Virus record (IMG/VR): IMGVR_UViG_3300019889_000231
Coordinates: 1 to 23,666 of that record
DNA: 23,666 nucleotides
Strand: one strand, 5' to 3'
Origin: a virus
Shown here one piece after another: positions 5,455 to 23,482 of this stretch. The notes below the pieces were generated by a model. That model did not search any database and was not told the origin of the DNA. It saw only the letters and a list, made by a program, of their open reading frames with translations. Made by a program: the position numbers and the translations under genes. Numbering within the stretch: the stretch's first letter is position 1; each line of letters starts with the position of its first letter.

Positions 5455-6215
5455 CAGTCCTGCTCGTCCATGTAGCTCTTTGCGTTGAACCACGTTGCCG
5501 GATGCGGGATGAAGTGCTGCTCTTTGGCCTGGAGCTTCTGTTTGACCTCTGGGCTGGCTGCGTACTCCTCCGTCTTCGCCAGCAGCACTTCGTAGGCTTC
5601 CTGGGCAGGAAGGGCTTCCGTGAAGTCGCCTTTGTAGATTCCCATCAGGGCGGCTCGGATGGCTTTGTGCGCTGTCCCTCTCGCCTTCTTCCGGGGGTAC
5701 GCCTGGTAGATCCCCTCCACCTGCTCATCCGAGAACGGGATTTCTCTTTTCTTGGTCGTGAGACCAAGAGAGAGATTCTCTCTCTTAGAATAAGAGGTAG
5801 GAATTACCCTTTGGGGAATTCCAATGGAATTACCCTTTAGGGAGTTCGCGATTTCCACCCTGGCGATCAAATTCTCCCAATTGAGGGAGATGTGCTTCAC
5901 GGTATTTGTGTCGCGTTTGAACACATCCGTGATGATCAAACCGCGCTTTTCCAACTCGGCGCAGCAGCGGTCAAACTGTTTCGGTGACATGCAGCACTCG
6001 TCCTGCCATTGCTCCCGGAAACGAGCAATCCAAAGGCGGCCGTCTCGCTCCACGTCATGCTTGGAATTGCCTGTTCGGTCGGGAAGGAAGTAGTAGACGA
6101 TCTGGCTGAGGAGTACGCCGGCTGCGATGTCGCCGGCTATGTCGATGTAGCAACGCTTCACGTCGATCACGTCGCGTGAAGAACGTTCCCAAGCAATAAA
6201 GTCATTGGTAAGCAC
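5454..6215 (-). CDS. Phage replication initiator, winged-helix plus C-terminal domain
   Basis: A 253-residue protein of the phage replisome-organiser type. Residues 15-45 (DVIDVKRCYIDIAGDIAAGVLLSQIVYY) match the start of many phage replication winged-helix proteins; residues 60-100 contain a recognition-helix pattern (MSPKQFDRCCAELEKRGLI). After a linker, residues 168-253 form the C-terminal domain with YPRKKARGTAHKAIRAAL and the HPATWFN motif common to phage initiators. It should bind the origin and recruit helicase. The likely start is GTG at 6213-6215, behind a GAGAGGA site 9 nt away. The linker DNA carries iteron-like repeats. It is the first gene of the leftward replication operon, directly before the primase-helicase. 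Confidence 0.8.
   Translation of the reverse strand: MLTNDFIAWERSSRDVIDVKRCYIDIAGDIAAGVLLSQIVYYFLPDRTGNSKHDVERDGRLWIARFREQWQDECCMSPKQFDRCCAELEKRGLIITDVFKRDTNTVKHISLNWENLIARVEIANSLKGNSIGIPQRVIPTSYSKRENLSLGLTTKKREIPFSDEQVEGIYQAYPRKKARGTAHKAIRAALMGIYKGDFTEALPAQEAYEVLLAKTEEYAASPEVKQKLQAKEQHFIPHPATWFNAKSYMDEQD
5749..5890. other. Candidate replication origin inside the initiator gene
   Basis: In the linker part of the initiator gene lie two 17-bp direct repeats that differ at one base: GGAATTACCCTTTGGGG (5800-5816) and GGAATTACCCTTTAGGG (5826-5842), 26 bp apart start to start. They are flanked by inverted repeats: CTTGGTC/GACCAAG with a 4-nt loop (5751-5768), a 9-bp AGAGAGAGA/TCTCTCTCT (5767-5785) and TCTCCC/GGGAGA (5873-5890). 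Lambda-type phages keep their origin, with iterons, inside the initiator gene between its two domains; the layout here is the same. Function is inferred. Confidence 0.45.
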
Positions 6216-6241
6216 GGAGGAAAGTCCTCTCCCATAGATTC

Positions 6242-6367
6242 CCCTGCGATGGCAGGGAGGTTGGGAGGGGGTGGCACTCAGAACGAGTGGGACTCCACCC
6301 CTTTAAACCTACGCGAGCGGCAGGTGTCCGGTGATCAAGCCGAACACCACCAAATTAACTCCGCTCG
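6242..6367. promoter_or_regulatory. Strongly folded leader before the replication operon
   Basis: The 157-nt gap between the regulator gene and the initiator gene holds four inverted repeats: CCCTGC/GCAGGG with a GATG loop (6242-6257); GGGGTGG-CACTC/GAGTG-CCACCCC with a 5-nt bulge (6268-6301); GGTGT-CGG/CCG-ACACC with one-base bulges (6323-6348); and an outer CGAGCGG/CCGCTCG that encloses the last (6314-6320 with 6361-6367). In the leftward mRNA this would be the initiator leader. There is no clear T-run, so a simple terminator is not obvious; attenuation or protein binding are alternatives. Confidence 0.5.
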
Positions 6368-6372
6368 ATTAT

Positions 6373-7659: not shown

Positions 7660-7914
7660 ATGGGCAAGACAATGGAGTACAGGGGATACACCAGCACCGC
7701 TCGGAAGGGAATGGGTCAAATGAGCGATTACAGTATTGAGCAAATTGCGGACGAGATTCGTCGCCTGCTTGCACTAGATGGCGACAAGGCGGTGCGGATG
7801 AGTCTGCCGGATCTCGAAGCGGGCAAGGATGCTGAGGACATAGAGGCTGAGATCCGCGCCTGCCTGACTCCGGAAGAGAATGCGCGGCTGGTCTTCACTG
7901 CTATGACCAGATAA
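7660..7914 (+). CDS. Small acidic protein of unknown function, 84 aa
   Basis: The ATG at 7660 is preceded by GGAGGAG about 7 nt away, which fixes the start better than the upstream in-frame codon at 7609; a further ATG at 7720 also has a possible site (GGAAGGGA). The C-terminal half (SIEQIADEIRRLLALDGDKAVRMSLPDLEAGKDAEDIEAEIRACLTPEENARL) is helical and acidic. The last 14 nt overlap the end of the convergent PIN toxin gene, so the two transcripts are partly antisense. No family is recognised. Confidence 0.55.
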   Translation: MGKTMEYRGYTSTARKGMGQMSDYSIEQIADEIRRLLALDGDKAVRMSLPDLEAGKDAEDIEAEIRACLTPEENARLVFTAMTR

Positions 7915-8287
7915 CCTTCAGACCCTTGTACTTTTTGAACTGCCGGTCTGAGCCAATCAGGGGTATGTCCTCGGCCAGTGCCGTCGCGATCAATATGCGA
8001 TCAAAGGGGTCACGGTGATGCAATGGCAGATGACACAGCTTGTAGGCGTGATTTGCTTCAAACGGAAGAATGGTGAGGCGAAGATCGCGAATGGCTTGAC
8101 GTATCTCGGCTTCGCCCATCGACGCCTTCTTGATGCTCGTTTTGAGCGCAAGCTCCGTGATGGAAATTACGCTCACGAAGTTGATTGACTCCGCATCCTC
8201 AAGCAATGCTATGACGCGAGGCGGAAGTCGTCCCTCCGCACGATAGGCGTGCACGATGACTTGCGTATCGAGCAGGAAGCGCGGCAT
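7901..8287 (-). CDS. PIN-domain ribonuclease toxin (VapC-like)
   Basis: A 128-residue PIN protein, the toxin of a type II toxin-antitoxin pair. The four acidic positions of the family are present: D7 (LLDTQVIV), E45 (SITELALK), D93 (HHRDPFDRILIATA) and D113 (LIGSDRQF). Length and the PFDRILIATAL motif match the Phd-partnered group of PIN toxins. Such enzymes cut RNA and stop growth when the antitoxin is lost. The ATG overlaps the antitoxin stop by one base (TAATG), so translation is coupled. In a prophage it may help keep the element in the host or act against other phages. Confidence 0.9.
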   Translation of the reverse strand: MPRFLLDTQVIVHAYRAEGRLPPRVIALLEDAESINFVSVISITELALKTSIKKASMGEAEIRQAIRDLRLTILPFEANHAYKLCHLPLHHRDPFDRILIATALAEDIPLIGSDRQFKKYKGLKVIWS

Positions 8288-8535
8288 TAGTAATGCCCCA
8301 TGACGAAGGCGTCCGCTTCCTCGTCCGACATCGGGTCAAGCCAGTGCGGATCAAAGATTTTCACCTTGCCCTTGCCAGTGCCGAACTTCGGCTTGGGCTT
8401 TTCCTGTGGGCGCGATGGCACCAGATCGGCTACCGGCGTGTTGTAGCGACAAATGGTGATGCGCTCTCCCCTGGCCACCCTGGCGAGCAGTTCTTGGAAG
8501 TGCGCCTTGGCGTATGTGGTTTTGACGTTTTCCAT
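8287..8535 (-). CDS. Phd/YefM-type antitoxin
   Basis: An 82-residue antitoxin encoded just before the PIN toxin. Residues 5-45 (KTTYAKAHFQELLARVARGERITICRYNTPVADLVP) are the Phd/YefM DNA-binding fold: a strand, the AKxxFxxLL helix, then RGExIxIxRxxxPVAxLVP. The C-terminal part (PHWLDPMSDEEADAFV) is the likely toxin-neutralising tail, with the DPMSDEEADAF pattern common in antitoxins of PIN toxins. The ATG at 8533-8535 has no ribosome binding site, and a -10 box sits only 6 nt upstream, so the mRNA is probably leaderless. The protein should repress its own promoter. Confidence 0.9.
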   Translation of the reverse strand: MENVKTTYAKAHFQELLARVARGERITICRYNTPVADLVPSRPQEKPKPKFGTGKGKVKIFDPHWLDPMSDEEADAFVMGHY

Positions 8536-8746: not shown

Positions 8747-9216
8747 CACGCACGCCGAAGCATGCGGCGAAGGTTCTTGTGTTCTTGCTTATGGCATGGA
8801 TCGCAAAGCCACATTACCTCTAGCGGCTTACTGTAGTCCGGGTGGTGGCCCTCGATCTTGCCAGAACCGCCACATCGCTCACAGTGATCCGGCCTGCTGA
8901 GGCGCCCATCCCGCACGGCATTGTTAACAGACGTTGACGCCTTCTTTTTGTGCGGATTCCTTGCGTCCCACGCCTGCTTGCTGCGACCGCCTGAAACGGG
9001 TACCCATGTTCTCTCTGGCGTGAGACGTTCCATTCGTCTCGGCCTGTTGCGGTCGTACTCGCGGATGCGCTCCAGGTTCTTGTTGCGATGCTCCAGCGCA
9101 TCACGCCGGCAGCACGCTTTGCACTTGTTCAGGTGGCCGTCTCCCATCATCGGATGACGATAGAAGTCGGCCACCGGTTTAATCAGTGAGCATGAGATGC
9201 AACACTTTTCGTCCAT
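8746..9216 (-). CDS. HNH-like phage zinc protein
   Basis: A 156-residue protein with two metal-binding parts. The N-terminal module (residues 5-37: CCISC, then KCKACCRR after 25 residues) is a zinc ribbon common in phage HNH-type proteins. The C-terminal part (112-146) has CERCG, the EGHHPDYSKPLEVMWLCDPCH segment and QEHK, the layout of a compact HNH/treble-clef nuclease with paired His 124-125 as likely active site. The middle is basic. It starts 2 nt after the SSB-like gene, in the recombination operon. Nuclease activity is inferred from the fold; a structural zinc protein is also possible. Confidence 0.75.
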   Translation of the reverse strand: MDEKCCISCSLIKPVADFYRHPMMGDGHLNKCKACCRRDALEHRNKNLERIREYDRNRPRRMERLTPERTWVPVSGGRSKQAWDARNPHKKKASTSVNNAVRDGRLSRPDHCERCGGSGKIEGHHPDYSKPLEVMWLCDPCHKQEHKNLRRMLRRA

Positions 9217-9218
9217 GA

Positions 9219-9758
9219 TCAGAACGGAATTTCCGATTCATCGATCTCCAGCGCGTCACCGGGTACCAGTACCGGCTCCTTCTTCTTCCCCTTGCCCGCC
9301 AGCGCCTTGCCGAAGAGCGCATCCAGTTGCCGCATCTCGCGAGACTCCAGCGGCTTCAGCTCCGGTAGCTTGGCCGTGCGGGCAACAGACCACCGCTCCC
9401 GCATGTTGCCTTCCTGGTCGGCTTCGTGGGTGCAGAGGAAATCGAACGTCTTGCCCACAAACGACTGGTGCTCCGGATGGCCGGGGTCCAGTGCGCCGAA
9501 GGTGGAACCTTCGTACCCCAGAGTCTCCAGCGATGGCACCACGTACTCCACCGTTTTCTCCGTAATTGCCATGTAGATCGACCGCTGGAACTGGTTGCGG
9601 TGCGGAGTGTAGCTGGTGGGGTCGCGAGGATCGGCCACGCCTAATACCCTGATGGTCAAGACGAACTGGAACGTGCCCGTAGCGGCCTTGGTAAGCCCCT
9701 GCTGAAGTACTTCCCCTACGTGAATGCCCTGATCGTAATGCGGTCCCTTTGACGCCAT
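9219..9758 (-). CDS. SSB-like phage protein with acidic DESEIPF tip
   Basis: A 179-residue protein. The body has beta-rich segments (TFQFVLTIRVLGV, RSIYMAITEKTVEYVV, KTFDFLCTHE) compatible with an OB fold, and residues 145-160 are a basic, flexible linker. The last residues DALEIDESEIPF closely match the acidic tip of bacterial SSB (ending DDDIPF), which recruits repair and replication proteins. Together with the neighbouring Sak4-like ATPase this suggests a phage single-strand DNA-binding protein, or one that mimics the SSB tail. I do not recognise the body as a standard SSB, so the assignment rests on the tip and the context. The ATG overlaps the previous stop (TAATG). Confidence 0.6.
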   Translation of the reverse strand: MASKGPHYDQGIHVGEVLQQGLTKAATGTFQFVLTIRVLGVADPRDPTSYTPHRNQFQRSIYMAITEKTVEYVVPSLETLGYEGSTFGALDPGHPEHQSFVGKTFDFLCTHEADQEGNMRERWSVARTAKLPELKPLESREMRQLDALFGKALAGKGKKKEPVLVPGDALEIDESEIPF

Positions 9759-11005: not shown

Positions 11006-12073
11006 TTACCCAGCTCGCTGTTGCTCCGATTGCAGTCCCAAAAAGTAGACTTCAAGCGACTGATGAAATAGCGTCCCGAAAAAAAGAGCCTCAGACTCTT
11101 CCTCATCCATCGCTTCCAGGCCAACTTCGTACTTCAGGTAGTGGAGTTGCCTACACGTTTGGAACGTCCTGATTCTAGAATTTGTCAGAATGTCCAGACC
11201 GCGCCCTTCGCCCACAGGCAACTCTGGATGGACCCATTCCCTGGTGGCCCATTTTCCCGAATCGATGGTGTCGTGCTTCGAGCACAATCCCAGGAATTTG
11301 CAGGGCCGATTGAATGTAAAACAGGCGCCAGAGTTACGCGGCCAGCGGTTGTTGCGACGTGCGTGCAGGAGATCCTGGCCATGGCCCCACACGTCCCCGG
11401 CATACTCCAACATCTCCGAGTCCAGACGGGGAATCAGGCGACGCTGGTAGTGTCTTTCCGGACGCTCTACGCATACGTCCTCCACCAGTCGGCCGATGTA
11501 CATCATGAGCGTTTCCCGTTCGTGCTCTCTGACGTAGGCTTTGGAGTCTTCATCGAGCGGGGTGCCGAAGTACGCCGCCCCATCGAGTAACCGGGTTACA
11601 TCTTTCTTGAGAAGTAGCTTAGGAGCGATCTGGGGTTTTCTCATGGAATCCCACAGACCATAGTCGTATTTTTCGCCGTTGCACCATTCCAAGAGCAAAT
11701 AATGCGTTGGCTGGCTCTCAACAATAAGCTGCCGCCAGTACGCTCCATTGGGGTCACTGATGTCTTCCGAGGTTGTCTTGTGATCGACGACAACACGATG
11801 CCCGGTGGCCTCTTCGCGGGCCTTCACGTCCAGCTTGCCGGCGATCGAGAAGGACCGGCTCTTCGCTCCCGTCTCCGGATTCCACAGCGGAGCCGTGCGG
11901 ACTGATTCCACCGAATCGATGAGGTAGGGAGCCTGCCTCCAGCGATGGTCATATCCGTACATCATGCCGATGCAGCGGGCGGCAATCAGCCGGGTTTTCT
12001 CGTCTTTGTCCTGGAGGGTTGGGGTCAGAACTTCGATGGCAGCGTGTAGGGGACGATCGCTGATCTCTTTCAT
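11006..12073 (-). CDS. PD-(D/E)XK Fe-S nuclease with permuted order
   Basis: A 355-residue protein of the AddB/Cas4-like nuclease group. The core is IAGKLD82 and VVVD97-H-K99TTSEDI, the PD-(D/E)XK catalytic residues; C251, C258 and C264 (ACFTFNRPCKFLGLC) are three ligands of a 4Fe-4S cluster. In relatives I know, the protein begins with LTxSRxxxFxxC...GxxxHxxLE, the helix with the fourth Cys, and ends at HPEL. Here HPELP is at 282-286 and the would-be N-terminal piece follows it: ILTNSRIRTFQTC (C307) and FGTLFHQSLEVYF (332-344). No such piece precedes the core. The segments look circularly permuted but complete. It should process DNA ends for the recombination system encoded after it. Confidence 0.75.
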   Translation of the reverse strand: MKEISDRPLHAAIEVLTPTLQDKDEKTRLIAARCIGMMYGYDHRWRQAPYLIDSVESVRTAPLWNPETGAKSRSFSIAGKLDVKAREEATGHRVVVDHKTTSEDISDPNGAYWRQLIVESQPTHYLLLEWCNGEKYDYGLWDSMRKPQIAPKLLLKKDVTRLLDGAAYFGTPLDEDSKAYVREHERETLMMYIGRLVEDVCVERPERHYQRRLIPRLDSEMLEYAGDVWGHGQDLLHARRNNRWPRNSGACFTFNRPCKFLGLCSKHDTIDSGKWATREWVHPELPVGEGRGLDILTNSRIRTFQTCRQLHYLKYEVGLEAMDEEESEALFFGTLFHQSLEVYFLGLQSEQQRAG

Positions 12074-12849: not shown

Positions 12850-13082
12850 GCCTCACGCATGAGCCGCACTACACACCAATTGAGCTGGGCGAAATATGGC
12901 ACTTGTCGCCAGCGATGATTCGCAAAGTCTTCGAGAACGAGGATGGCGTCCTCAAATTCGGAGAACTGCCACCAAGAGTTGGAAGAAAACTGAAGCGCTC
13001 CTACCTGACAATGCGTATCCCCTATTCGGTCGCGGAACGGGTCCACAAACAGCGGTCTACCAGACGGAGACTACGCGCCTGA
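12846..13082 (+). CDS. Excisionase-like small DNA-binding protein
   Basis: A 78-residue basic protein. The ATG at 12846 has AGGAG 5 nt upstream and overlaps the preceding stop. Residues 9-50 (YTPIELGEIWHLSPAMIRKVFENEDGVLKFGELPPRVGRKLKRSYLTMRIPYSV) match the MerR/excisionase winged helix: a start like YTPxELGExWxLSxxxIRKxFxxE, then a beta wing, then RIPxSV. The tail RVHKQRSTRRRLRA is very basic. It ends 26 nt inside the 3' end of the convergent integrase gene. Size, fold and position fit a recombination directionality factor. Confidence 0.65.
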   Translation: MSLTHEPHYTPIELGEIWHLSPAMIRKVFENEDGVLKFGELPPRVGRKLKRSYLTMRIPYSVAERVHKQRSTRRRLRA

Positions 13083-14310
13083 TGTGGGCATCATCCAGAG
13101 CCTTAACAAATGGCGCGTAATGCAGGTAGATCATTTTAGTGTCCACATGCCCCATCATCCGGGCAAGTTCTTCAGGTCGCTGTCCCGCAATAAGCTGTCG
13201 CACCGCAAATGTGTGACGCAGCATTTTCACGTTTGCATCCTTGGTCTGAACCTGTCCCCGCTTATCCCGTGTGGGTAGCTCGACGTATTCGATGCCAGCA
13301 GCATCGAGCACCGCAGAGACGCGCTTCGACCACTTCTCCTGGTCGTGCCTAAGCTTCAGTCCATCCGTCCGGAATGGCATCTCCGCAGTTGTGCCAGACT
13401 CCAGAGGAATATCCCGCAACTCTGCCGCCAGCGCGACGGAGATCGGGATCACCGCTTGCACGCCGGTCTTGAGCCTCTTGTACCGGTATACGTAGACCTT
13501 TCGTTTATCGACCATGGTGGCCTCGATCCTGCTTACTTCGAACAGCACGGCGTCGCTCACATCTGCTCCGGTATGGAGCAACAGATTAATGAATGCTCGC
13601 AACCGTGGAGCGTAGTTGCCTCTTCGAGCGATAGGCAAATTGCGGGGCATACTTGATTCCACGTTCGCAAACATGTCAGCTACCTGTGCATCGGTGTACG
13701 GTCCCTGAACGTGGTCGCCGTCCACCTTCGACCTATGGATGCTGGCGGCCGGGGATTGTTCAAGAACGCCGCGTTTCTCCCAAAACAAGAACATAGTGCG
13801 AACGCAACTCCACCTCTGCGCCTTCGTTGACGGCGCGTAATGGGACCACGCCGACGACGAGTACCAGCGTTCAAGATGCAGGGGTGTGATGCCTTGGACG
13901 TACTCAATTCCATGACGCTCGCCCCAGACGATCAACTTCCCCTTGAGAGTGACGTACTGCGCGATAGTGCTCGAAGTCTCTCCAAGGTCACGCTTCCGAC
14001 TTTCGATGAATAGCTTGCAAGCGTCCAAGATGGTCATCCGTCCGTGATCGCGTTTCGCGGAGGTCGCCCGCGCCGCCGCGATCTCTGGGTCCATACCACG
14101 CAGCGCATCGGATGCCATCCGCTCCGCCTCACTCCATCTCGGCGTGTTCAGAGATTTTCGGCTCTGTCTCCCAGTTTCCCTCCTCCAGAGGTAAATCCAT
14201 TTCGGACAGGAGCAGGTGTTGTATTCGGGATCACTGGCGCGTGAACAGTCAACTGAGTGCCGGGTGTATGCCCTCACGCTGCCATGCGCGGACTTCTGAA
14301 GGTTTTTCAC
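13057..14310 (-). CDS. int: Tyrosine recombinase (phage integrase)
   Basis: A 417-residue integrase if it starts at GTG 14308-14310; a TTG at 14356-14358 is possible, and neither has a clear ribosome binding site. The N-terminus has a Cys-rich arm-binding-like part (VDCSRASDPEYNTCSCPKW); the core-binding domain spans about 90-195. Catalytic residues by motif: K281 (RLKTG), R365 in the KMLRHTFAVRQL box (K362 where His is usual), H388 (MMGHVDT) and Y398 (LHYAPF). The first catalytic Arg, expected in TGxR, is Asp (HTGAD250VSDA). The substitution could disable or alter the enzyme. Position next to an excisionase-like gene supports a phage integrase. Confidence 0.85.
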   Translation of the reverse strand: MKNLQKSAHGSVRAYTRHSVDCSRASDPEYNTCSCPKWIYLWRRETGRQSRKSLNTPRWSEAERMASDALRGMDPEIAAARATSAKRDHGRMTILDACKLFIESRKRDLGETSSTIAQYVTLKGKLIVWGERHGIEYVQGITPLHLERWYSSSAWSHYAPSTKAQRWSCVRTMFLFWEKRGVLEQSPAASIHRSKVDGDHVQGPYTDAQVADMFANVESSMPRNLPIARRGNYAPRLRAFINLLLHTGADVSDAVLFEVSRIEATMVDKRKVYVYRYKRLKTGVQAVIPISVALAAELRDIPLESGTTAEMPFRTDGLKLRHDQEKWSKRVSAVLDAAGIEYVELPTRDKRGQVQTKDANVKMLRHTFAVRQLIAGQRPEELARMMGHVDTKMIYLHYAPFVKALDDAHIRRVVSVW

Positions 14311-14402
14311 AGCGGCAGGATAGCACCAACGTCCGGCCAGCGTACACAAAAATCTCAATTAGCGTGGAACCCCTATGCCTATTGAGTTTTACGCGAGCCG
14401 CA

Positions 14403-14872: not shown

Positions 14873-14911
14873 ATGTAATATATGTAATAAATCTAATAAT
14901 ACTAATAATAC
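14871..14911. repeat. AT-rich patch with two pairs of 9-bp tandem repeats
   Basis: ATATGTAAT occurs twice in tandem (14871-14888) and TAATAATAC twice in tandem (14894-14911), in a stretch of nearly pure A/T (to about 14935) within a GC-rich genome. It touches the start of the 70-aa gene. It may be a promoter and operator, a DNA-unwinding element, or a site for integration host factor-like proteins. Confidence 0.7.
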
Positions 14912-15051
14912 TTAATACATATAAGCTTCTAATCCAATCGGACGGGAAGCGAGTTCAGGACAATGCGGAACCGGACGGCTAGGCTCATGAAGCTCCTAAC
15001 CTAACGGCTCCGCTGTGTTCTCGGCGCGGGTGAGCTGAGACGAGGCACAAC

Positions 15052-15130: not shown

Positions 15131-15244
15131 AAACCGGAACCCCGAACGACCCTGGGACAACAATGACCTTTGGCTCGTCAGCGAATAATTCTCCGCCTTT
15201 TTATCACTGGTTGTGTTTCCATGCAAGTGGCAGGGAAGGAAATT

Positions 15245-15400
15245 ATGAGCGACGAAATCGAAGACTGGGAAAACGCCATTGCACGCGATGACCGGCGAGA
15301 GGCTATGCGGTCCGGCCTGCCTCAATCCTCACCAACCGTTCCCTTGACGCCTTCCGATGCAGTATTGCCTAGCCATTTATCTCAAAAGAGATTCCAATAG
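15245..15400 (+). CDS. Small acidic protein, 51 aa
   Basis: The ATG at 15245 follows GGAAGGAA. The protein begins MSDEIEDWENAIARDDRREAMRSG, a short acidic helix, then a Pro/Ser-rich tail. It is the first of a run of tiny rightward genes. Part of it (15311-15343) is a near copy of DNA at the end of the gene at 17583. No family is recognised. Confidence 0.5.
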   Translation: MSDEIEDWENAIARDDRREAMRSGLPQSSPTVPLTPSDAVLPSHLSQKRFQ

Positions 15401-15421: not shown

Positions 15422-15586
15422 GTGCTGTTCCTTCTCGTCATCTTGATCCTCGTATTTGGCTTTGGTGGCTACCGCCTGGGGCCGGGGGTCGGCTACTACG
15501 GTGGCGGCGGTCTGGCGCTTATCCTGCTCATCGTCCTGCTGGTGATGTTGTTCGGCGGCGGCCTGGGATTCAATCACCGCTGGTAG
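15422..15586 (+). CDS. Small hydrophobic DUF3309-like membrane protein
   Basis: A 54-residue protein, below normal gene-calling size. It begins at GTG 15422 with GGAGG 8 nt upstream. Two hydrophobic segments (MLFLLVILILVFGFGG and LALILLIVLLVMLFGGG) flank a Gly/Tyr-rich turn (PGVGYYGGGG). This layout and length match the DUF3309 family of small membrane proteins, of unknown function. It sits in a membrane and lies just before another tiny membrane protein. Confidence 0.65.
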   Translation: MLFLLVILILVFGFGGYRLGPGVGYYGGGGLALILLIVLLVMLFGGGLGFNHRW

Positions 15587-15595
15587 GAGGCTTCC

Positions 15596-15760
15596 GTGTT
15601 GAGTTTGATCTTCCTCGTCCTTGCCCTGATCTGCTTCATCATCTCCGCCGCTGGCTACACGCCATCCCCACGCCCCATCAACCTCACTGCTCTAGGGCTG
15701 GCCTTCTGGGTACTCAGCATCCTGGTGGGTGGCGCTGGTGGTCACATGCTGCTCCGGTAG
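15596..15760 (+). CDS. Small two-segment membrane protein, 54 aa
   Basis: Starts at GTG 15596 with AGGAGG 5 nt upstream, 9 nt after the preceding gene. Two hydrophobic helices (SLIFLVLALICFIISAAGY and LGLAFWVLSILVGGAG) with a Pro-rich turn between them suggest a small inner-membrane protein. It is the same length as the DUF3309-like protein before it but is not obviously a copy. It might have a role at lysis or in the envelope; unknown. Confidence 0.6.
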   Translation: MLSLIFLVLALICFIISAAGYTPSPRPINLTALGLAFWVLSILVGGAGGHMLLR

Positions 15761-15765
15761 GGGAT

Positions 15766-16128
15766 GTGGCCCAGAAGATCCTTGTCGTCGATGACGATCC
15801 AGAGGTACGGCTGGCGCTGCAACTTCGCCTGGGGCACAGTGGGTACGTGGTGCTCTATGCCGTCAATGGAGCGAAGGCCATTGCGGATGCGGCGCAATAC
15901 GCGCCTGACTTGATCATCCTCGACATCGGGATGCCCATCGTCGATGGGTGGGCGGTACTGGAGCGGCTACGCGATAGCAAGATCCCGATCATCGTTCTCA
16001 GCGGCATCCACAAGCACGGCAATCGGGAGCGAGCCATGCTGGCCGGGGCCAGGGCCTTTCTCCAGAAACCCTTCGATGCCGGCCTGCTCATGGCAACCAT
16101 CGACTACGCAATAGGGGACAAATCGTGA
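15766..16128 (+). CDS. CheY-like single-domain response regulator
   Basis: A 120-residue protein consisting of only a receiver domain. It has the acidic pair D10-D11 in VVDDDPEV, the phosphoacceptor D53 (LIILDIGMP), S79 (IVLSG) in place of the usual Thr, and K101 (LQKPF). It has all that is needed to take a phosphate from a histidine kinase, and no output domain. The GTG at 15766 follows AGGGG closely. It is 5 nt after a membrane-protein gene and overlaps the holin-like gene as GTGA. A receiver gene in a phage cassette is unusual; it may tap into host signalling. Confidence 0.9.
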   Translation: MAQKILVVDDDPEVRLALQLRLGHSGYVVLYAVNGAKAIADAAQYAPDLIILDIGMPIVDGWAVLERLRDSKIPIIVLSGIHKHGNRERAMLAGARAFLQKPFDAGLLMATIDYAIGDKS

Positions 16129-16427
16129 CTGAAGCTGCAATGATTGCCATGATCGGCATCATCCCTACCACGTTGGCGGCGAGCACTGCCGCAGTGATTG
16201 GTATCCTGAATCGCAACACCATCAAAAAGGTGGAAACCAACGTAGACGGGAATCTGACCGAAGTGAAGAATCAGCTCGCCATTGCCATCGCAAACATTGC
16301 CCGCATGACCGAAGCGCTGGGCATTGCGCAAGGTGTGGCCGAAGAGAAAGAGCGCAACCGCTTGGCAGGTGACGCGAAGTACGCAGAAGGCGTCGAGGCG
16401 GAGAAGAGTCGCCATCCCGCCAGCTAG
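16125..16427 (+). CDS. Holin-like small membrane protein with coiled-coil tail
   Basis: A 100-residue protein starting at GTG 16125, overlapping the receiver gene stop. One hydrophobic N-terminal helix (residues 4-27, MIAMIGIIPTTLAASTAAVIGIL) precedes a charged helix (NTIKKVETNVDGNLTEVKNQLAIAIANIARMTEAL). This resembles many phage lysis-region proteins with one transmembrane helix and an NSxLxEL/VDGxLxxV tail. Holin activity is not shown and the family is divergent; no endolysin is nearby in the window. Confidence 0.55.
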   Translation: MTEAAMIAMIGIIPTTLAASTAAVIGILNRNTIKKVETNVDGNLTEVKNQLAIAIANIARMTEALGIAQGVAEEKERNRLAGDAKYAEGVEAEKSRHPAS

Positions 16428-16480
16428 CCTGGCTGCATCTATCTCGTACATAGGGACTTGCTCGACGGGCCGAGGGGGTT

Positions 16481-16489
16481 TGGTAAAAT
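16481..16489 (+). promoter_or_regulatory. Extended -10 promoter for the candidate RNA
   Basis: TGGTAAAAT at 16481-16489 is a TGn extended -10 element. It predicts a start near 16496, just before the first hairpin of the RNA at 16496-16720. No clear -35 is present. Confidence 0.45.
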
Positions 16490-16495
16490 GGGTTA

Positions 16496-16720
16496 ATCCC
16501 CGAGCCGAGTGAGTCGGCCCGAGGTTGCTGTACAAAGCCACTACTCTAATGCCACCAGAGTAGTAGCGCGGCGATCCACTGTAGCGGTACATGGATCGCA
16601 AGGTTGATGCGGATGCTCAGGTGCACTCGCAACTTCCTCCTTGTTGTGACTGAGATACCGATCCGGCTACTCGGAAGGTAGCCGGATCGGGCTGCTTATT
16701 AGGGCAACCTCGGTCTTTTC
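16496..16720 (+). ncRNA. Candidate multi-branched structured RNA, ~220 nt
   Basis: A dense set of perfect stems fits one structure. A 10-bp closing helix joins CCGAGGTTGC (16519-16528) to GCAACCTCGG (16704-16713). Before it is a hairpin GCCGA/TCGGC (16504-16508, 16514-16518). Within it are ACTACTCT/AGAGTAGT (16540-16564); GCGATCCA-TGTA/TACA-TGGATCGC with a GCGG loop (16571-16599); CTCAG/CTGAG enclosing TCGCAAC/GTTGTGA (16616-16654); and 13-bp CCGATCCGGCTAC/GTAGCCGGATCGG (16658-16690). TCTTTT follows the closing helix, as in a terminator, and an extended -10 box precedes. I do not recognise a known RNA (no tmRNA, 6S or RNase P signature). The alternative is a long leader for something downstream. 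Confidence 0.6.
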
Positions 16721-16859
16721 CGCTACTCCCCAAAAAACAGGCATATCTCCCACATCAGTCACAAGCACATCTCCGATTCTATCGGCGCACGGCTCTATGC
16801 AACAGGCCGAGGTGCCGGGTCAAACAACCTCACGGCGTCGAAGCAGAGAAGAATCGTCA

Positions 16860-17014
16860 CCTGCGATAGACTGGTCCCAGCAGCGGCGGCGCACAATTCC
16901 ATGGCCGGCAGTTTCCTTTCGAGGGACTCTACGTGCAGGAATCACTTCGGTGACTGGTTGCATGGGGCCGCTGCCTCAATCCTGCGATAACCTGATCCCC
17001 AGGCAGCGGCAGCG
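16860..17014. repeat. Imperfect direct repeat in a gene-free stretch
   Basis: From 16721 to 17203 I find no supported gene; the short open frames there have no family resemblance. The stretch holds an imperfect direct repeat of about 32 bp (16860-16891 and 16981-17014, both starting CCTGCGATA and ending in CAGCGGC-rich DNA), a 9-bp hairpin CCGCTGCCT/AGGCAGCGG (16968-17009) and a small TCAC-TTCG-GTGA hairpin (16942-16953). The hairpin half-site returns at 17594. Confidence 0.5.
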
Positions 17015-17120: not shown

Positions 17121-17203
17121 AATAACCTCCGTCATTAAACTTCTGACACATCTCCTTTTTGGGGATGCGCTCGACGGGATACTCTGGTTTAGGGTGATCG
17201 GGC

Positions 17204-17574: not shown

Positions 17575-17608
17575 AGCCGGTATCAAGTCCGGCCCGCTGC
17601 CTCAATCC
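17575..17608. repeat. Right repeat copy, part of a dispersed family
   Basis: The right partner of the repeat at 17093. Its later part (CCGCTGCCTCAATCC, 17594-17608) also occurs exactly at 16968-16982. The stretch 17588-17623 matches 15311-15343 with a 3-bp gap and a few mismatches. This copy covers the 3' end of the gene at 17583, so the others may be remnants of that gene's end. Confidence 0.5.
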
Positions 17609-18509
17609 GCACAAACCGTTCCTTCCCCGGCTCCATCCCCGCATGACACTCCCGCTGGTAGACGCACGGGATCGGGAAGTCGCAGGTAGACAACTGCTGG
17701 TCCGGTAGCTCCGTCATGCCGGCCAGCCGCTCCAGCTTCCGCGCTGCCATGTCCCGCAATCTCTGCAATTCCACTTTCCCCGGCACCGGGATTTCCACCT
17801 TGAAACACACATCGCGAAGCACATCATCGTCCAGCATGGTCTGGAGCCACACCATGCGATCGATCTCGGCGCGGTCCTCCCTCCAGATGCGCTCCCAGGT
17901 GTCCCTGAAGTCTTCCGTGGTGGTGTGCTTCACCTTGCGGAATCGCAGCTTGTGATTCGTGGGATGGAGTAGCCCTTTCGTCCAGGGAGAATGGCGCCTG
18001 CCATCGCGCTGCACTCCCAGAATCAGGACCACCTGCTGCATCGGCATCTCGTAGGCCGCCACTTCTCCCAGCGAGTACCAGGAGCGGATCTCGGAGTAGT
18101 GACGATCGTCAGACCAGGAAGAAGCGAGCACGACCCTGCGTAGACGCGTTCCAGAGGGGTCAAGAAACGCTCCGGAGGTCCATCCTGTACTCAGAGGCTC
18201 CGGACGTGTCCACGGCTCTTCTCCGGGCTTCCTGATGGCGCTGGAGGTGATGTCAGCCAGGCAACTGTGATGCACGGCAGAATCGTAGATCTGATGCGAA
18301 TTGGTCTGCATCCCACGGTCCTTGGCGAGTTGCATGATCTCTTCGCCAGCCACCTCGCCAAAGTCGGTACGTTCGGCTTCCGTCACCGCGGCGGCGATCG
18401 CAGCCTGCAACATCTGTGTGCCATCCAGTCTGATGCGCTCCCAGTCGCGACCCCAGTACGCTCTTCTTTGGCACTGCTCGTAAGCGGATAGCAGGGATGC
18501 GGTGCTCAC
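17583..18509 (-). CDS. Fe-S nuclease-like phage protein, degenerate PD-(D/E)XK
   Basis: A 308-residue protein with the Cas4/AddB cysteine layout: one Cys near the N-terminus (LLSAYEQC13QRRAYW) and three at the C-terminus (C276, C282, C288 in TCDFPIPCVYQREC). The N-terminal SxxxxYxxCxRxAYW helix is also typical. The middle (SEIRSWYSLGEVAAYEMPMQQVVLILG) resembles the nuclease strand and the Q-x-x-Y-like helix, but the expected ExK is EIR, so catalysis may be lost or altered. The GTG overlaps the stop of the gene before as GTGA. It is beside the virion genes and may be an end-processing or packaging factor. The family call is inference. Confidence 0.5.
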   Translation of the reverse strand: MSTASLLSAYEQCQRRAYWGRDWERIRLDGTQMLQAAIAAAVTEAERTDFGEVAGEEIMQLAKDRGMQTNSHQIYDSAVHHSCLADITSSAIRKPGEEPWTRPEPLSTGWTSGAFLDPSGTRLRRVVLASSWSDDRHYSEIRSWYSLGEVAAYEMPMQQVVLILGVQRDGRRHSPWTKGLLHPTNHKLRFRKVKHTTTEDFRDTWERIWREDRAEIDRMVWLQTMLDDDVLRDVCFKVEIPVPGKVELQRLRDMAARKLERLAGMTELPDQQLSTCDFPIPCVYQRECHAGMEPGKERFVRIEAAGRT

Positions 18510-20848
18510 TGTGGTGCGGTTGATCCTGTCTCGATATCAAAGTGGGGCCTCAAGAGGTCTCTGGCTTCTTTGCGATTCTGCACCGGCTGATTCCCGACAG
18601 AGCCTGCTGCAAGAAACGCCGCTATCGCCGGAGAAACAGGAATGCCCTTCGCCTGCGCTTCCTTTGCTATCGCAGAGATGCTGCTGATAATCGTCACACC
18701 ATCCGCGCCGGGAATCTTTCTGAGCGCTGCCAGTTCTCCAGGAGGCGGCTGCGAAAGAAATTTCACTACGCGTGGATTCTCCAGAACCTTCTGCGCAAAC
18801 GCCTTGCCGCCCACATAGCTAGCCGCTCCAGCACGAAACACTACCGAGTGGCCGCCCCCATGACCAAGCACGTGCATGATCTGACCCACGATTGGCTCAA
18901 GGATTGCCGAAGAGGTCAGAATAGCGGCATCGTAGCCGGTGAAACCCCATGCCCTGGCACGCTTGTAAATCGCTTCTTCCCGTAAAGCTACTGTGTCTAC
19001 CGTGGGCTTCTCTATTGGCGTCAACTCGGGATTCGAAGGCCGTCCTTTCATCTTCGGCGGGTCCGGCAACTTTACCTGCGGCGCCCGCGGGTCCGGCGTA
19101 TCGACTGGAGGTTTCGGTAACGGCTTTAGTCCGGCACGCAACCTTTCTTCAGTCGGCATTGCCTTCAGCTTCGCCCGTGCCGCCACTACCCCCTTGTAGT
19201 CCTCAACCAGCGAAGGATCGTGCTTGGCTGCGGCATCCAGCCGCGCCTGCTCCTGTCGCTCCGTTACCGCATCCGCGTTAGCGTCTCCCTTGCGCTCACC
19301 CATCACGGTACGACGCGGAGTCCGCTCTTTCCCAAACGCTTCCATGTATTCGCGGGTCGCCTTCACGCCTCTTTCCAACTCAGGCGCGATGCCCAGTTCA
19401 ATCGCCCCTCTCGTTCGAGCCGCATTGAGCGACTTCAACACCTGTTTCATCTCTCCCAGCTTCACGCCTTCATACTTGCCGTCCGCGATGTTCTTTCCAA
19501 TAATCGACGTGGCGCGATGAATGTCTTCGAGCGAGGTCTTGACCCCTTTTTGGGGATCGAAGTCGATAGGCTCTGGTTCGAAGCCGTTGGACGCGGCAAT
19601 CTCGTCAATCTTGGCGCGACGTTCGGCTGGCAACTCCCAATAGTCGCCCTTGTAACCCTGGCTCTGCATAATCGCGGCCCGATCCTGCGCGTACAGGGAA
19701 TCTGGTGCTGCATCTTCCGCCGATGCGGTGATGTGTCGTAGCTCGCCGGCCGCTTCGGAATTGCGAGCGCTGATCTTTTCCAGATCCCCTGCAAGCCGAT
19801 CCACATCCACCGGAGTCTTTGCCTTCTCATGAAACGGTTCCCACTCCTGGTCCGTCGCCTTCTTCACGCTGGCTGCGGTGGCGTCTTCCTTCGTGAAGTA
19901 CGCATCCGTCTTTGCCTTCAGGTCGGCCTCTGTCTGCCGGCGAAGATCAAGCGTCTGCTCTGCGCCCTGGTTCAACTCCTGCACGCCCTGGTGTTCGGTC
20001 GCGTGAGTATCGACGGCCTCTTTGTTCTGCTGACGCACCCTGCCTACAGCCTCCTGGTGCGTCGCGGCCGCCTCCTGCTGTGCCTCCAGAGTGTCGTAGG
20101 CGTGCTCCATGTTCGCTTCCTCGTTACCCCGCGTAGCCTCGCGGATCGAGTCTGCGTGGCCTTCGACTGCCTGCCGGTTCTTCACACTTGCTGCCTGAGC
20201 AGTTTCATTCCCCTTCCTTACAGCGCCACGCACCTCATCAGCCACCACACCCCTGCCAGCACCGGCAATCACCTGCCCTGTACCCCGGAGATTGTTGGTG
20301 GCCACTCTACGGAAGTTCTTAATAGTCTTGCCTGCTGTTGCCCCGAGGACCGCTTGACCAACAAAGTTGCCGGTCACATAGGCGGGATGGTCAATCGCAA
20401 ATTGACCCTGCTCCGCCAACTCCTGCGTACCTTTCAGGTTTGGAACAGGCACCGGGATTCCACCCACGTTGCGATACGTCGGCATCACGTTCCGTATTTG
20501 CTTCAACAGTCCGGTTGCAAAAGATTCAATTGGATGCGCCAGCACTGCCTCGCCCGCCTGGGCGATACCCGTTGCAAACTGCTCAAGCTTGCCACTGAAA
20601 TCGTGCCGGTCTTCCTTGGCCCCCGGAGCAACGGACGCGTCCATCTTTCCCTGCACGCCTGCAACCTGTGCCCGCATATTCGCAATGAATCCGGGCGGCT
20701 TGGTGGCAGTGAGGTCTACAGAGTCCGCATAATTCGGATACTTGTCCAACACCTTCCTGCCGATCTCCTCATCGGACATAGAGCCGTACTGGGGATACTT
20801 GGTCTTGATCTTCTGACCGAACTGCGAGAGAGACATTTTGTCGGGCAC
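18506..20848 (-). CDS. Large virion-associated protein, 780 aa
   Basis: The N-terminus (LSQFGQKIKTKYPQYGSMSDEEIGRKVLDKYPNYADSVD) is a short repeat-like motif (IKxKYPxYxxxxDxxIxxKVLxKYPxY) found at the start of many phage virion and ejection proteins. Residues 200-340 are Ala/Glu/Gln-rich and helical, probably a coiled coil. Residues 620-760 hold several weakly hydrophobic Gly/Ala helices (DAAILTSSAILEPIVGQIM, ITIISSISAIAKEAQA-like). A role as internal or ejection protein that enters the cell with DNA is likely but inferred. The GTG at 20846-20848 has GGAG 8 nt upstream; an ATG four codons later lacks one. Confidence 0.55.
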   Translation of the reverse strand: MPDKMSLSQFGQKIKTKYPQYGSMSDEEIGRKVLDKYPNYADSVDLTATKPPGFIANMRAQVAGVQGKMDASVAPGAKEDRHDFSGKLEQFATGIAQAGEAVLAHPIESFATGLLKQIRNVMPTYRNVGGIPVPVPNLKGTQELAEQGQFAIDHPAYVTGNFVGQAVLGATAGKTIKNFRRVATNNLRGTGQVIAGAGRGVVADEVRGAVRKGNETAQAASVKNRQAVEGHADSIREATRGNEEANMEHAYDTLEAQQEAAATHQEAVGRVRQQNKEAVDTHATEHQGVQELNQGAEQTLDLRRQTEADLKAKTDAYFTKEDATAASVKKATDQEWEPFHEKAKTPVDVDRLAGDLEKISARNSEAAGELRHITASAEDAAPDSLYAQDRAAIMQSQGYKGDYWELPAERRAKIDEIAASNGFEPEPIDFDPQKGVKTSLEDIHRATSIIGKNIADGKYEGVKLGEMKQVLKSLNAARTRGAIELGIAPELERGVKATREYMEAFGKERTPRRTVMGERKGDANADAVTERQEQARLDAAAKHDPSLVEDYKGVVAARAKLKAMPTEERLRAGLKPLPKPPVDTPDPRAPQVKLPDPPKMKGRPSNPELTPIEKPTVDTVALREEAIYKRARAWGFTGYDAAILTSSAILEPIVGQIMHVLGHGGGHSVVFRAGAASYVGGKAFAQKVLENPRVVKFLSQPPPGELAALRKIPGADGVTIISSISAIAKEAQAKGIPVSPAIAAFLAAGSVGNQPVQNRKEARDLLRPHFDIETGSTAPQ

Positions 20849-22858
20849 TTAGAGGACTCCCAGCGGATCTTTTGCGGCATCGGCCGGCGTGTTCGCCTTA
20901 GCCTTGTCCCTCAGATCGCCGGGAGTGGAAGTCTTGTAAGTGTCCACCGTTTTCTGTGTCGCTTCCAACTCGCCCCTTGCGGATTCCAGAAACATTTGCG
21001 CCTGCTTCTCGCTCATCGTGCCGGAAACAATCCTGGCAAGGCCGCCTTCCAGCTTCATCGTGGCACCGCCCACATTGTTGACTAGCTGGATCTCAAAGTC
21101 CGATATACGACCCACTCGACCACGCAACCACGACATCACAATGCCCTGCGAAGTAACGGGATTAAAATTATCCACGGCACTCTTTACGCTTTCGTATGAA
21201 GTATTGGCGAGATCCCTGGCCTCTACCGCCTTTGTGTAGGCCGGGGTGATCTTCTTGTAGGGCAGGACTCGACCACCGGAGGGCTTGGCTCCGCCACCTG
21301 CGGGACTACCTCCACCACCTGCGGGACGCACCGTTTGCGTTGGAGCTGCGGGAGAGCCGTCAGCCGCAGACGAAGGCGCATGGGGAAATTTCTTCTCGCT
21401 GGCAAAAAACATCCTCTCTATATGGGGAGTGCCATCTAGGTCCGTGACCACCATATCGCGCCATCCCGTTCCGCTTGGAGTCTCCATCTCCTTCTTCTTC
21501 ACTATCGCAGCCGTTACCATATCTTCGGTGTAGCTTCCATTCGGCACACCGGGATTCATGGCACGCAAGAGCGTCCTGAATTCAGAATTCGACTCCGGCG
21601 CTGCCTTCGGTGGCGGAGGCGCGTATCCCGCCGCCATCAACTGATTGCGATGGTTCCCCTCAGCATCGATCTGTGGCTCTGACCATGTACCGTCTGCATT
21701 CGGGAATGGAGCGCCATTCCGTTGCCACCTGTCTGGCTTGTCTGCCGTGGCTCCAGGTTCGAGCTTGGCATGAATGCGAGCCGCCTGACGCTCTTCATCC
21801 GGCGTCAGTAGCCTTGGGAGGGGTCTAGGACCGCTCGCCGCCATCAGGTTGGCCTGCGCCTGTGCCATTAGCTGCTGGCGCGTCTGCGGGCCTTGTACGG
21901 TCCCGTATTGGCCCTGTGGAAGAGATAGGGAATCTCCCGGCATATCCAGCGGCGTGGGGTTGGCTGCAGCCATCGGATCGCCATTTTGGTCGGCATCGTA
22001 TGACGGTGCATAGACTGCATTCGCGCTGCCGTCATTTGTATACGCATGGGTTTTTCCAGCGTATGCGTTTGCCTCTTCAGCCGACTTGAAGGTGCCTAGA
22101 TGCTGTCGGGTTTGCCCGTAGTAAGCAGTAGCTGCATCTTCTAGCTGGCTCATCCCTGATTTATCTGGCATCTTGCCGTTGGCTGTCAGGAACTTTCCGT
22201 TCGCAATGGAGGGTACGAGTGCATACCCGGTGACACCCGGAGATCCCCAGGCTTGCGGAGAGCCGTCCTTGCCAACCGGCACCGTCATGCTAAAGATGCT
22301 GCTGCTACTGCCATCATCGTTTTTAATGCCGGGGCGGTGATTGACATCAATGTTGCCCCTCTGCAGCATTCCGGGGATGAGTTGACCCGCTAAGGGTCCA
22401 GTCTGGTAAGAGGTCGAAAGTTGACCTGTACCTGTCCTGGGGGGAGCGGACGGTGCCGCCCAGGAGGGTGCAGCCATCTTTTGCGGCGCAGCCTGAAGCT
22501 GCATCGCCGGAGTAGCGCTGATGGTCGGCGGTCCAGGCTGTACTGGCGGAGGCGCCGCGTGGTATCCCGGCACATGATCCAGCAACATGTGGCCGAACTT
22601 CTGCATTGCTGTGGGATTCTTGCTGGGATCGAATAGCTGGGTACGCGCCTGGATCGCATTCTTTAGTCCCAGACTCGCTTCTTCCCAGTCTTTAGTGTGC
22701 GGTGTCGTGAGAGCCAACTGCTTACGAAATCCAGTGATGTTGTCGTTGGCGTCACCAACGTTCAGTTGGAATTGCTCGTCGGACAGAGCCTGCTTTTGCA
22801 GAGCGCTGGCATTGGCCCGGTCCATCCCATAAGAAAACCCTGTACCGAATGCTCCCAT
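20849..22858 (-). CDS. Virion-associated protein with GNID-type domain, 669 aa
   Basis: Residues 168-275 hold a domain known from many phage internal and structural proteins: GNIDVNHRPGIKNDDGSSSS, then YALVPSIANGKFLTANGK and YYGQTRQHLGTFKSAEEANAYA; relatives read GNIDLxNRPxVxNxDGSIST...HLGxFxxxExAxxYA. The stretch 100-160 is Pro/Ala/Gln-rich and flexible, and 505-545 is Gly/Pro/Ser-rich; the last 140 residues are helical. It ends right before the next virion gene (TAA, then GTG). It is probably a particle component or ejection protein. No signal or membrane segment is seen. Confidence 0.6.
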   Translation of the reverse strand: MGAFGTGFSYGMDRANASALQKQALSDEQFQLNVGDANDNITGFRKQLALTTPHTKDWEEASLGLKNAIQARTQLFDPSKNPTAMQKFGHMLLDHVPGYHAAPPPVQPGPPTISATPAMQLQAAPQKMAAPSWAAPSAPPRTGTGQLSTSYQTGPLAGQLIPGMLQRGNIDVNHRPGIKNDDGSSSSIFSMTVPVGKDGSPQAWGSPGVTGYALVPSIANGKFLTANGKMPDKSGMSQLEDAATAYYGQTRQHLGTFKSAEEANAYAGKTHAYTNDGSANAVYAPSYDADQNGDPMAAANPTPLDMPGDSLSLPQGQYGTVQGPQTRQQLMAQAQANLMAASGPRPLPRLLTPDEERQAARIHAKLEPGATADKPDRWQRNGAPFPNADGTWSEPQIDAEGNHRNQLMAAGYAPPPPKAAPESNSEFRTLLRAMNPGVPNGSYTEDMVTAAIVKKKEMETPSGTGWRDMVVTDLDGTPHIERMFFASEKKFPHAPSSAADGSPAAPTQTVRPAGGGGSPAGGGAKPSGGRVLPYKKITPAYTKAVEARDLANTSYESVKSAVDNFNPVTSQGIVMSWLRGRVGRISDFEIQLVNNVGGATMKLEGGLARIVSGTMSEKQAQMFLESARGELEATQKTVDTYKTSTPGDLRDKAKANTPADAAKDPLGVL

Positions 22859-22864
22859 AATTTT

Positions 22865-23482
22865 TTACCAGCCATTCCCGCCGTACCCACCGTACCCACT
22901 ACGCCCACCACGCCCACGCATCATGGCTCCAAATGTGTCTGAACCCATTTGGTTCATTGCGGTGCCAAGCCCAAACCCCTCCATCGTGCCAATCCCGCTA
23001 CTGATCCCCTGACCCAGAATGCTGTTCGCCCAGTTCTTCATTCGCTCCTGCGAGAGTTGAGCCTCCTGGCCGTATCCCTGCATCCCGGCTTGGAGCAGAT
23101 TCTGCCCCATCGATCCCAGATTGCTCGCCGCACCCGTCTGCATCCCGCCAATCATGTTGATCATGTTGCCGCGGCCGGCAGCATCGATCCCTGCTCCAGC
23201 CGCTGCCGTTCCACCAGAACGCGTGCCAAACTGTGCAAGGGTATTCTTCGCCCCCTGTCCCTGTTGCTGATTGGCGGAAACAGCGGGTGCTAATGCCTGT
23301 CCAATCTTGGACGAATCGCCACTCAGGATCGACTTCCAGAACTTGTCGGCAGCGGAAATGTCGCCCGTACCCTGGCCGGCAGCAAAGCCTGCCAGCGAGC
23401 CAGTGGCGTTGATGTCTTTATTGAGGGTCGAATTTGCCCCACCAAAGAGGCTTGCAAAATAGCCGCTCATAGAAACCGCCAT
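22865..23482 (-). CDS. Virion-associated Gly/Ala/Gln-rich protein, 205 aa
   Basis: The start is either ATG 23480-23482 or ATG 23468-23470 (MSGYFASLFGGANSTLN, the more natural-looking N-terminus). The middle (KFWKSILSGDSSKIGQALAPAVSANQQQGQGAKNTLAQFGTRSGGTAAAG) resembles phage proteins with a GDxxKxxxALAPxxxxxxxQxxxAxxxLAxxGxRGGG core, seen in podophage virion gene clusters. The C-terminus is Gly-rich (GRGGRSGYGGYGGNGW). It is the first of three leftward virion-linked genes and lies 6 nt before the 669-aa gene. Function is unknown; an assembly or ejection role is inferred. Confidence 0.6.
   Translation of the reverse strand: MAVSMSGYFASLFGGANSTLNKDINATGSLAGFAAGQGTGDISAADKFWKSILSGDSSKIGQALAPAVSANQQQGQGAKNTLAQFGTRSGGTAAAGAGIDAAGRGNMINMIGGMQTGAASNLGSMGQNLLQAGMQGYGQEAQLSQERMKNWANSILGQGISSGIGTMEGFGLGTAMNQMGSDTFGAMMRGRGGRSGYGGYGGNGW

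Follow-up and report, generated by a model that had tools for sequence, protein, structure and literature searches.

A convincing orphan structured element in a phage of a likely Acidobacteriota host, tentatively read as a stand-alone RNA

The segment 16496–16720 of a 23.7-kb virus record (the window, that is, the whole stretch of DNA analysed) was predicted to fold far beyond chance and makes a convincing orphan structured element. Its plus strand reached −105.9 kcal/mol, against −75.5 ± 4.6 kcal/mol for dinucleotide shuffles (z −6.6), and 0 of 200 shuffles were as stable. We tentatively read this element as a stand-alone structured non-coding RNA of about 220 nt from the plus strand, with a rough probability of 0.4; its transcription, its strand, its stability in the cell and a binding partner are what we infer.

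The whole record was scanned on both strands in 208 non-overlapping tiles of 225 nt, which had a mean z of −0.4 (standard deviation 1.5). The tile of the element ranked first of 208 on the minus strand (z −6.6) and third on the plus strand (z −5.9). The 480 nt that follow the element showed only ordinary structure (z −0.8), so that the structure has a sharp limit on its 3′ side. No recognisable protein gene covers the segment, in agreement with a preliminary description that had placed it in a non-coding stretch.

The plus-strand fold contains 73 pairs, 68 of them Watson-Crick and 5 G·U, and its non-overlapping helices take up nearly the whole segment. The predicted parts, with their pair probabilities, are as follows.

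16504–16518, plus strand: 5′ hairpin of 5 bp with loop GUGAG, directly adjoining P1 (0.99)
16519–16529, plus strand: 5′ strand of the closing helix P1, CCGAGGUUGCU (1.0)
16537–16567, plus strand: arm A, a hairpin (0.996)
16568–16572, plus strand: 5′ strand of P2, which pairs with 16691–16695 and encloses arms B, C and D (0.71)
16573–16597, plus strand: arm B, a hairpin (0.999)
16598–16644, plus strand: arm C, an interrupted hairpin (0.77 at the base, 0.98 at the tip)
16658–16690, plus strand: arm D, a 14-bp hairpin, CCGATCCGGCTACT/GGTAGCCGGATCGG (1.0)
16691–16695, plus strand: 3′ strand of P2
16703–16713, plus strand: 3′ strand of the closing helix P1, GGCAACCUCGG (1.0)

P1 consists of 10 Watson-Crick pairs and one U·G, has a span of 195 nt and is extended by pairing of 16531–16532 with 16700–16701. 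Inside it lie the four hairpins, arms A to D. Most plus-strand helices had pair probabilities of 0.98–1.0, and the soft spots were P2 and the base of arm C. The stability relative to the shuffles and to the other tiles, the pair probabilities near 1, the lack of a recognisable protein gene and the sharp 3′ limit all argue for a stand-alone RNA.

The helices named in the preliminary description, including the closing helix and the adjoining 5′ hairpin, were all recovered in place. It had also noted that 16519–16521 could pair in two ways, leaving room for switching. The alternative pairing does exist, but removing P1 was predicted to change the energy from −105.9 to −90.0 kcal/mol. Because the loss of P1 costs about 16 kcal/mol, there is no balanced switch on the plus strand, and the switching idea finds little support there.

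The element had been described as matching no RNA that could be named, and this held in database searches: with Rfam 15, nothing in the window passed the gathering thresholds and nothing overlapped the element up to E 10. No tRNA or tmRNA gene was found in the element by ARAGORN. In being a branched RNA of a phage it would resemble GOLLD and ROOL, which occur in phages and prophages as large, branched non-coding RNAs with unknown function (PMC12286853). Those RNAs far exceed it in size, are often located close to tRNA islands and have covariation support, whereas the element has about 220 nt, no tRNA, no Rfam match and no homologue found. Retrons, group I introns and OMEGA RNAs were dropped as candidates, with Rfam as the models applied, as the genes recognised next to the element include no reverse transcriptase, homing endonuclease or IscB/TnpB.

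This soil phage is related to the Acidobacteriota phages Tunturi_1 and Tunturi_2. With these Tunturiibacter phages it shares 52% identity in the Sak4-like protein, 51–52% in the exonuclease (11006–12073) and 51% in RusA. Since the Tunturi_1/2 isolates, which are podovirus-like, infect Acidobacteriota (PMC11924767), this protein kinship makes an Acidobacteriota host likely. Two IMG/VR phages, here L011 and L012, share the order of the late genes 22865–23482, 18506–20848 and 17583–18509, and 20849–22858 has a weak match in L011. The protein of 17583–18509 has two relatives in IMG/VR, and its alignment brought no further ones. An IMG/VR search for protein relatives of 20849–22858 (structural), ORF 16125–16427, the integrase, the primase-helicase and Sak4 returned none, and the Sak4 alignment reached only two Planctomycetes in the genome scan.

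Homologues of the element were sought with a single-sequence covariance model (R1), which was run on Tunturi_1/2, on part of Tunturi_4 and, with filters off, on L011 and L012. Only short, low-scoring matches were obtained. The best unfiltered match (L016:12759–12864, E 0.008) covered the 5′ hairpin and P1; it was rejected because all internal arms were missing and the sequence was AT-rich. The 16-mer GGTTGCTGTACAAAGC had two matches in IMG/VR, which we took as unrelated chance matches, with no R1 match around either. In all, no convincing homologue was found in the phage records, the plasmids, Tunturi_1/2, part of Tunturi_4, the two related IMG/VR phages and 199 Planctomycetota genomes, a set outside which the Acidobacteriota genomes lie. 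The stand-alone reading is weakened by this result, which leaves no covariation to support the helices, and by the absence of the element from the two related IMG/VR phages. Pairing of the element to the phage's own transcripts was limited to one 12-nt complementarity (minus strand, 8806).

Little has been charted of the structured RNAs that phages of poorly cultured soil lineages carry. The element, if it is transcribed, would be an early candidate for a structured RNA of Acidobacteriota phages, and the Tunturi isolates are a cultivable related group. At present, by its predicted structure, it is a well-supported fold.

The preliminary description had given the element its own promoter, a claim that is no more than plausible. 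Two features precede the segment.

16460–16481, plus strand: upstream element GCTCGACGGG-N7-GGTTT, found by pattern search, with a second exact copy at 17169–17190
16481–16489, plus strand: extended −10 box TGGTAAAAT, a putative promoter from which the plus-strand RNA would start, seen in the sequence and in a consensus scan

The extended −10 box is a good one and lies at the right distance, seven bases ahead of 16496, the putative start. Its −35 is poor, and the consensus match is no better than chance: 2 sigma-70 consensus sites were found in the region where 2.3 were expected. The upstream element occurs exactly twice in the window, the second copy lying 13 nt before the ATG of ORF 17204. 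A likeness such as that of the two upstream regions (16460 and 17169) was matched by 2–3% of shuffle pairs, and it is possible that the element and ORF 17204 share regulation. The position of the −10 box and the similar motif before the next plus-strand ORF favour a stand-alone RNA, while the chance-level promoter score counts against it. Two similar copies 121 nt apart, 16860–16878 (CCTGCGATAGACTGGTCCC) and 16981–16999 (CCTGCGATAACCTGATCCC), also have the look of extended −10 promoters.

As a stand-alone RNA, the element would be transcribed along its plus strand from the box at 16481–16489, with a start near 16496. Its 5′ and 3′ ends would be locked together by P1, with the 5′ hairpin beside it, and the result would be a compact, nuclease-resistant, branched particle. 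Such an RNA might bind a protein or the translation machinery and in this way act in trans; we favour no particular partner.

The minus strand of the same segment reached −106.4 kcal/mol (z −7.05), a fold that the first reading of the sequence had missed. It has 80 pairs, 9 of them G·U, and shares 45 pairs with the smaller set of the plus strand. The strand that forms P1 is here taken up by an 11-bp 3′ hairpin, which is 4.3 kcal/mol better than the P1 form. Since the fold of the minus strand is at least as good as that of the plus strand, a point against the stand-alone reading, folding does not give the choice of strand, and it is mainly the promoter box that speaks for the plus strand. The minus strand also carries the signals of a small gene.

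16636–16642, minus strand: perfect Shine-Dalgarno sequence AAGGAGG, partly paired in the minus fold
16546–16626, minus strand: hydrophobic mini-ORF of 26 codons starting from GTG, VHLSIRINLAIHVPLQWIAALLLWWH, with AAGGAGG 9 nt before the GTG

A Shine-Dalgarno sequence of at least 6 bases with a hydrophobic short ORF was seen in 0.23% of dinucleotide shuffles, for a combination that had been noticed post hoc; for 7 bases of Shine-Dalgarno and a short ORF of any kind the share was 0.1%. These features suggest a type I toxin-antitoxin-like pair, which we consider unlikely and which is the main rival of the stand-alone reading. In it the minus strand would be a highly folded mRNA for the 26-residue hydrophobic peptide and the plus-strand transcript from the extended −10 its antisense RNA. 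The structure would bury the ribosome site, and translation would begin only after processing or once the antisense RNA was lost, as in hok/sok and aapA/IsoA. In keeping with such a lock, the GTG start codon is paired and buried in the minus fold and the Shine-Dalgarno is partly paired; the z of −7.05 of this fold and its larger number of G·U pairs (9 versus 5) point the same way. The mRNAs of the aapA genes are end-paired and translation-locked, encode peptides of about 30 residues and are overlapped by an antisense RNA; hok follows a similar design (PMC6733600). In the minus-strand reading, the element would share with this known design a buried ribosome site, a short hydrophobic ORF, a putative promoter on the opposite strand and, where the P1 form is adopted, 5′–3′ end pairing (PMC6733600). 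No sequence relationship to these systems was found. Several observations speak against the pair, beyond the post hoc nature of the first one. The plus strand has a hydrophobic mini-ORF as well, if a weaker one (22 codons from ATG 16613, with AAGG only). The minus-strand promoter candidate is weak (TAGAAT near 16781, with 3 mismatches in the −35), trimming of the ends in silico leaves the start codon closed, P1 is the worse of the two minus-strand forms, and the peptide has no known homologue.

There is also a small chance that both strands are functional. The minus strand would then be a locked mRNA for a membrane peptide of 26 residues, and the plus strand a structured antisense RNA with an extended −10 promoter of its own; together they would represent a compact class of RNA, so far undescribed, in Acidobacteriota phages.

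At the other end of the element, the preliminary description had claimed a terminator-like end, and this proved unsupported.

16714–16720, plus strand: tail TCTTTTC, not an intrinsic terminator by sequence and scan

No local GC hairpin lies ahead of this tail. The region contains 1 terminator-like site where 2.0 were expected, and this site is arm D with the tail GCTGCTTATT, which is not the end of the RNA. The lack of a terminator counts against a stand-alone RNA, and the phrase "complete RNA gene" in the preliminary description went too far: the terminator is absent, the promoter is plausible at most, and the strand is not told by folding. Arm D could instead serve the plus-strand operon that ends with ORF 16125–16427, whose stop lies on the same strand about 70 nt before the element. 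The element would then be a structured 3′ UTR that protects the mRNA end or provides a hairpin stop, for example arm D, with no separate RNA. This explanation would account for the one terminator-like site of the region. We hold it to be quite unlikely, as a closing helix that spans 195 nt makes the element far more elaborate than a terminator, terminator-like sites are no more numerous than chance predicts, and a promoter-like box stands between ORF 16125–16427 and the element.

The near-equal folding energies of the two strands (−105.9 and −106.4 kcal/mol) would be expected if the element acted as DNA, that is, if a cluster of palindromes formed single-stranded or cruciform DNA at a replication, recombination or packaging site. 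The high share of Watson-Crick pairs on the plus strand (68 of 73), the degenerate repeats and the integrase gene nearby fit this explanation. Next to the element, however, we recognised neither iterons nor a nicking motif nor a replication gene, and to our knowledge so branched a structure, closed by a helix over 195 nt, is atypical of DNA sites. We judge a role at the DNA level to be improbable. A 45-nt AT-rich near-palindrome near the integrase gene, at 14879–14923 (TATATGTAATAAATCTAATAATACTAATAATACTTAATACATATA), is a candidate attachment site or operator.

The element is placed in an accessory region between the integrase (13057–14358) and the end of the late block. It is part of a plus-strand cassette with the order 15422–15586, 15596–15760, 15766–16128, 16125–16427, element, ORF 17204.

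15422–15586 and 15596–15760, plus strand: two short ORFs whose products resemble membrane proteins by eye
16125–16427, plus strand: gene of an orphan 100-aa protein, with its stop about 70 nt before the element

The ORF at 15766–16128 encodes a response-regulator receiver domain that stands by itself, with no output domain, here on a phage, and overlaps the orphan 100-aa gene. The 3′ end of the late gene 17583–18509 (17587–17622) is echoed at 15310–15342, inside ORF 15170–15400 (E 6e-4). This repeat brackets the plus-strand cassette and may mark an insertion boundary. The C-terminal end of ORF 16125–16427 is echoed after the element, at 16834–16860, in an apparent remnant (GVEAEKNRH versus GVEAEKSRH; E 0.037). 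The echoes at 15310–15342 and 16834–16860, the latter borderline, suggest that the region was shaped by insertion or duplication.

In both related IMG/VR phages, CRISPR-like arrays lie close to the same late gene, at L012:7688–8503 and at L011:8248–8498 and 8951–9416 (listed as IMGVR_UViG_3300035696_000065 and IMGVR_UViG_3300038426_000231). The two phages have 11 and 12 repeats of 37 nt (GTTGCACCCAGCAGGTGCACTCAAACTGCGTTGCGAC; GTTGCATCTGCTCGATGCACTTCAACTCCATTGTGAC), with spacers mostly of 33–36 nt, and the repeats are degenerate at one end of the arrays and identical at the other. No Cas family was found by Pfam or PADLOC among 102 ORFs of the two phages. The GGTGCACTCGCAACT of arm C resembles the repeats (GRTGCACTYNNAACT), and among the loci compared this pattern occurred only there and in the arrays, although it was picked after the match had been seen. 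Arm C might on this ground be an RNA anti-CRISPR (Racr-like) or a solitary CRISPR-repeat mimic directed against the host CRISPR. The element would share with Racrs that it is phage-encoded, lies downstream of a predicted promoter and has one arm loosely similar to CRISPR-like repeats of kin phages. Racr calling, however, requires 90% identity to a CRISPR repeat (PMC10651486), and arm C falls below this against the repeats of the kin phages, a set that does not contain the host's own repeats. Racrs are moreover single repeat units and the element is a branched structure of 220 nt. The mimicry is striking by eye, but arm C went unreported, even at E 50, in a search with a profile built from 22 repeats; the reading is not supported and is extremely improbable.

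Beyond the identical-repeat end of the arrays, the two phages share a palindrome-like block (L012:8584–8600, TTGTGACCGCTGTCACG; L011:9496–9512, TTGTGACAGCGGTCACG), possibly part of a conserved leader. In L011, tandem repeats of about 80 nt (CCTGCGGTGGGGC...GCTGCATGCAATGCC) at 7900–8243 adjoin a CRISPR-like array.

Elsewhere in the window, 7901–8535 carries a Phd-type antitoxin gene (8287–8535; NCBIfam phd_fam, E 6e-7) together with a PIN-like toxin gene (7901–8287, a weak match). Two other tiles of the scan were unusually stable, 5696–5920 and 6146–6370 (z −5.9 on the minus strand; −4.7 and −4.6). The former lies inside ORF 5454–6215, and the latter covers the start of that ORF and sequence upstream of it.
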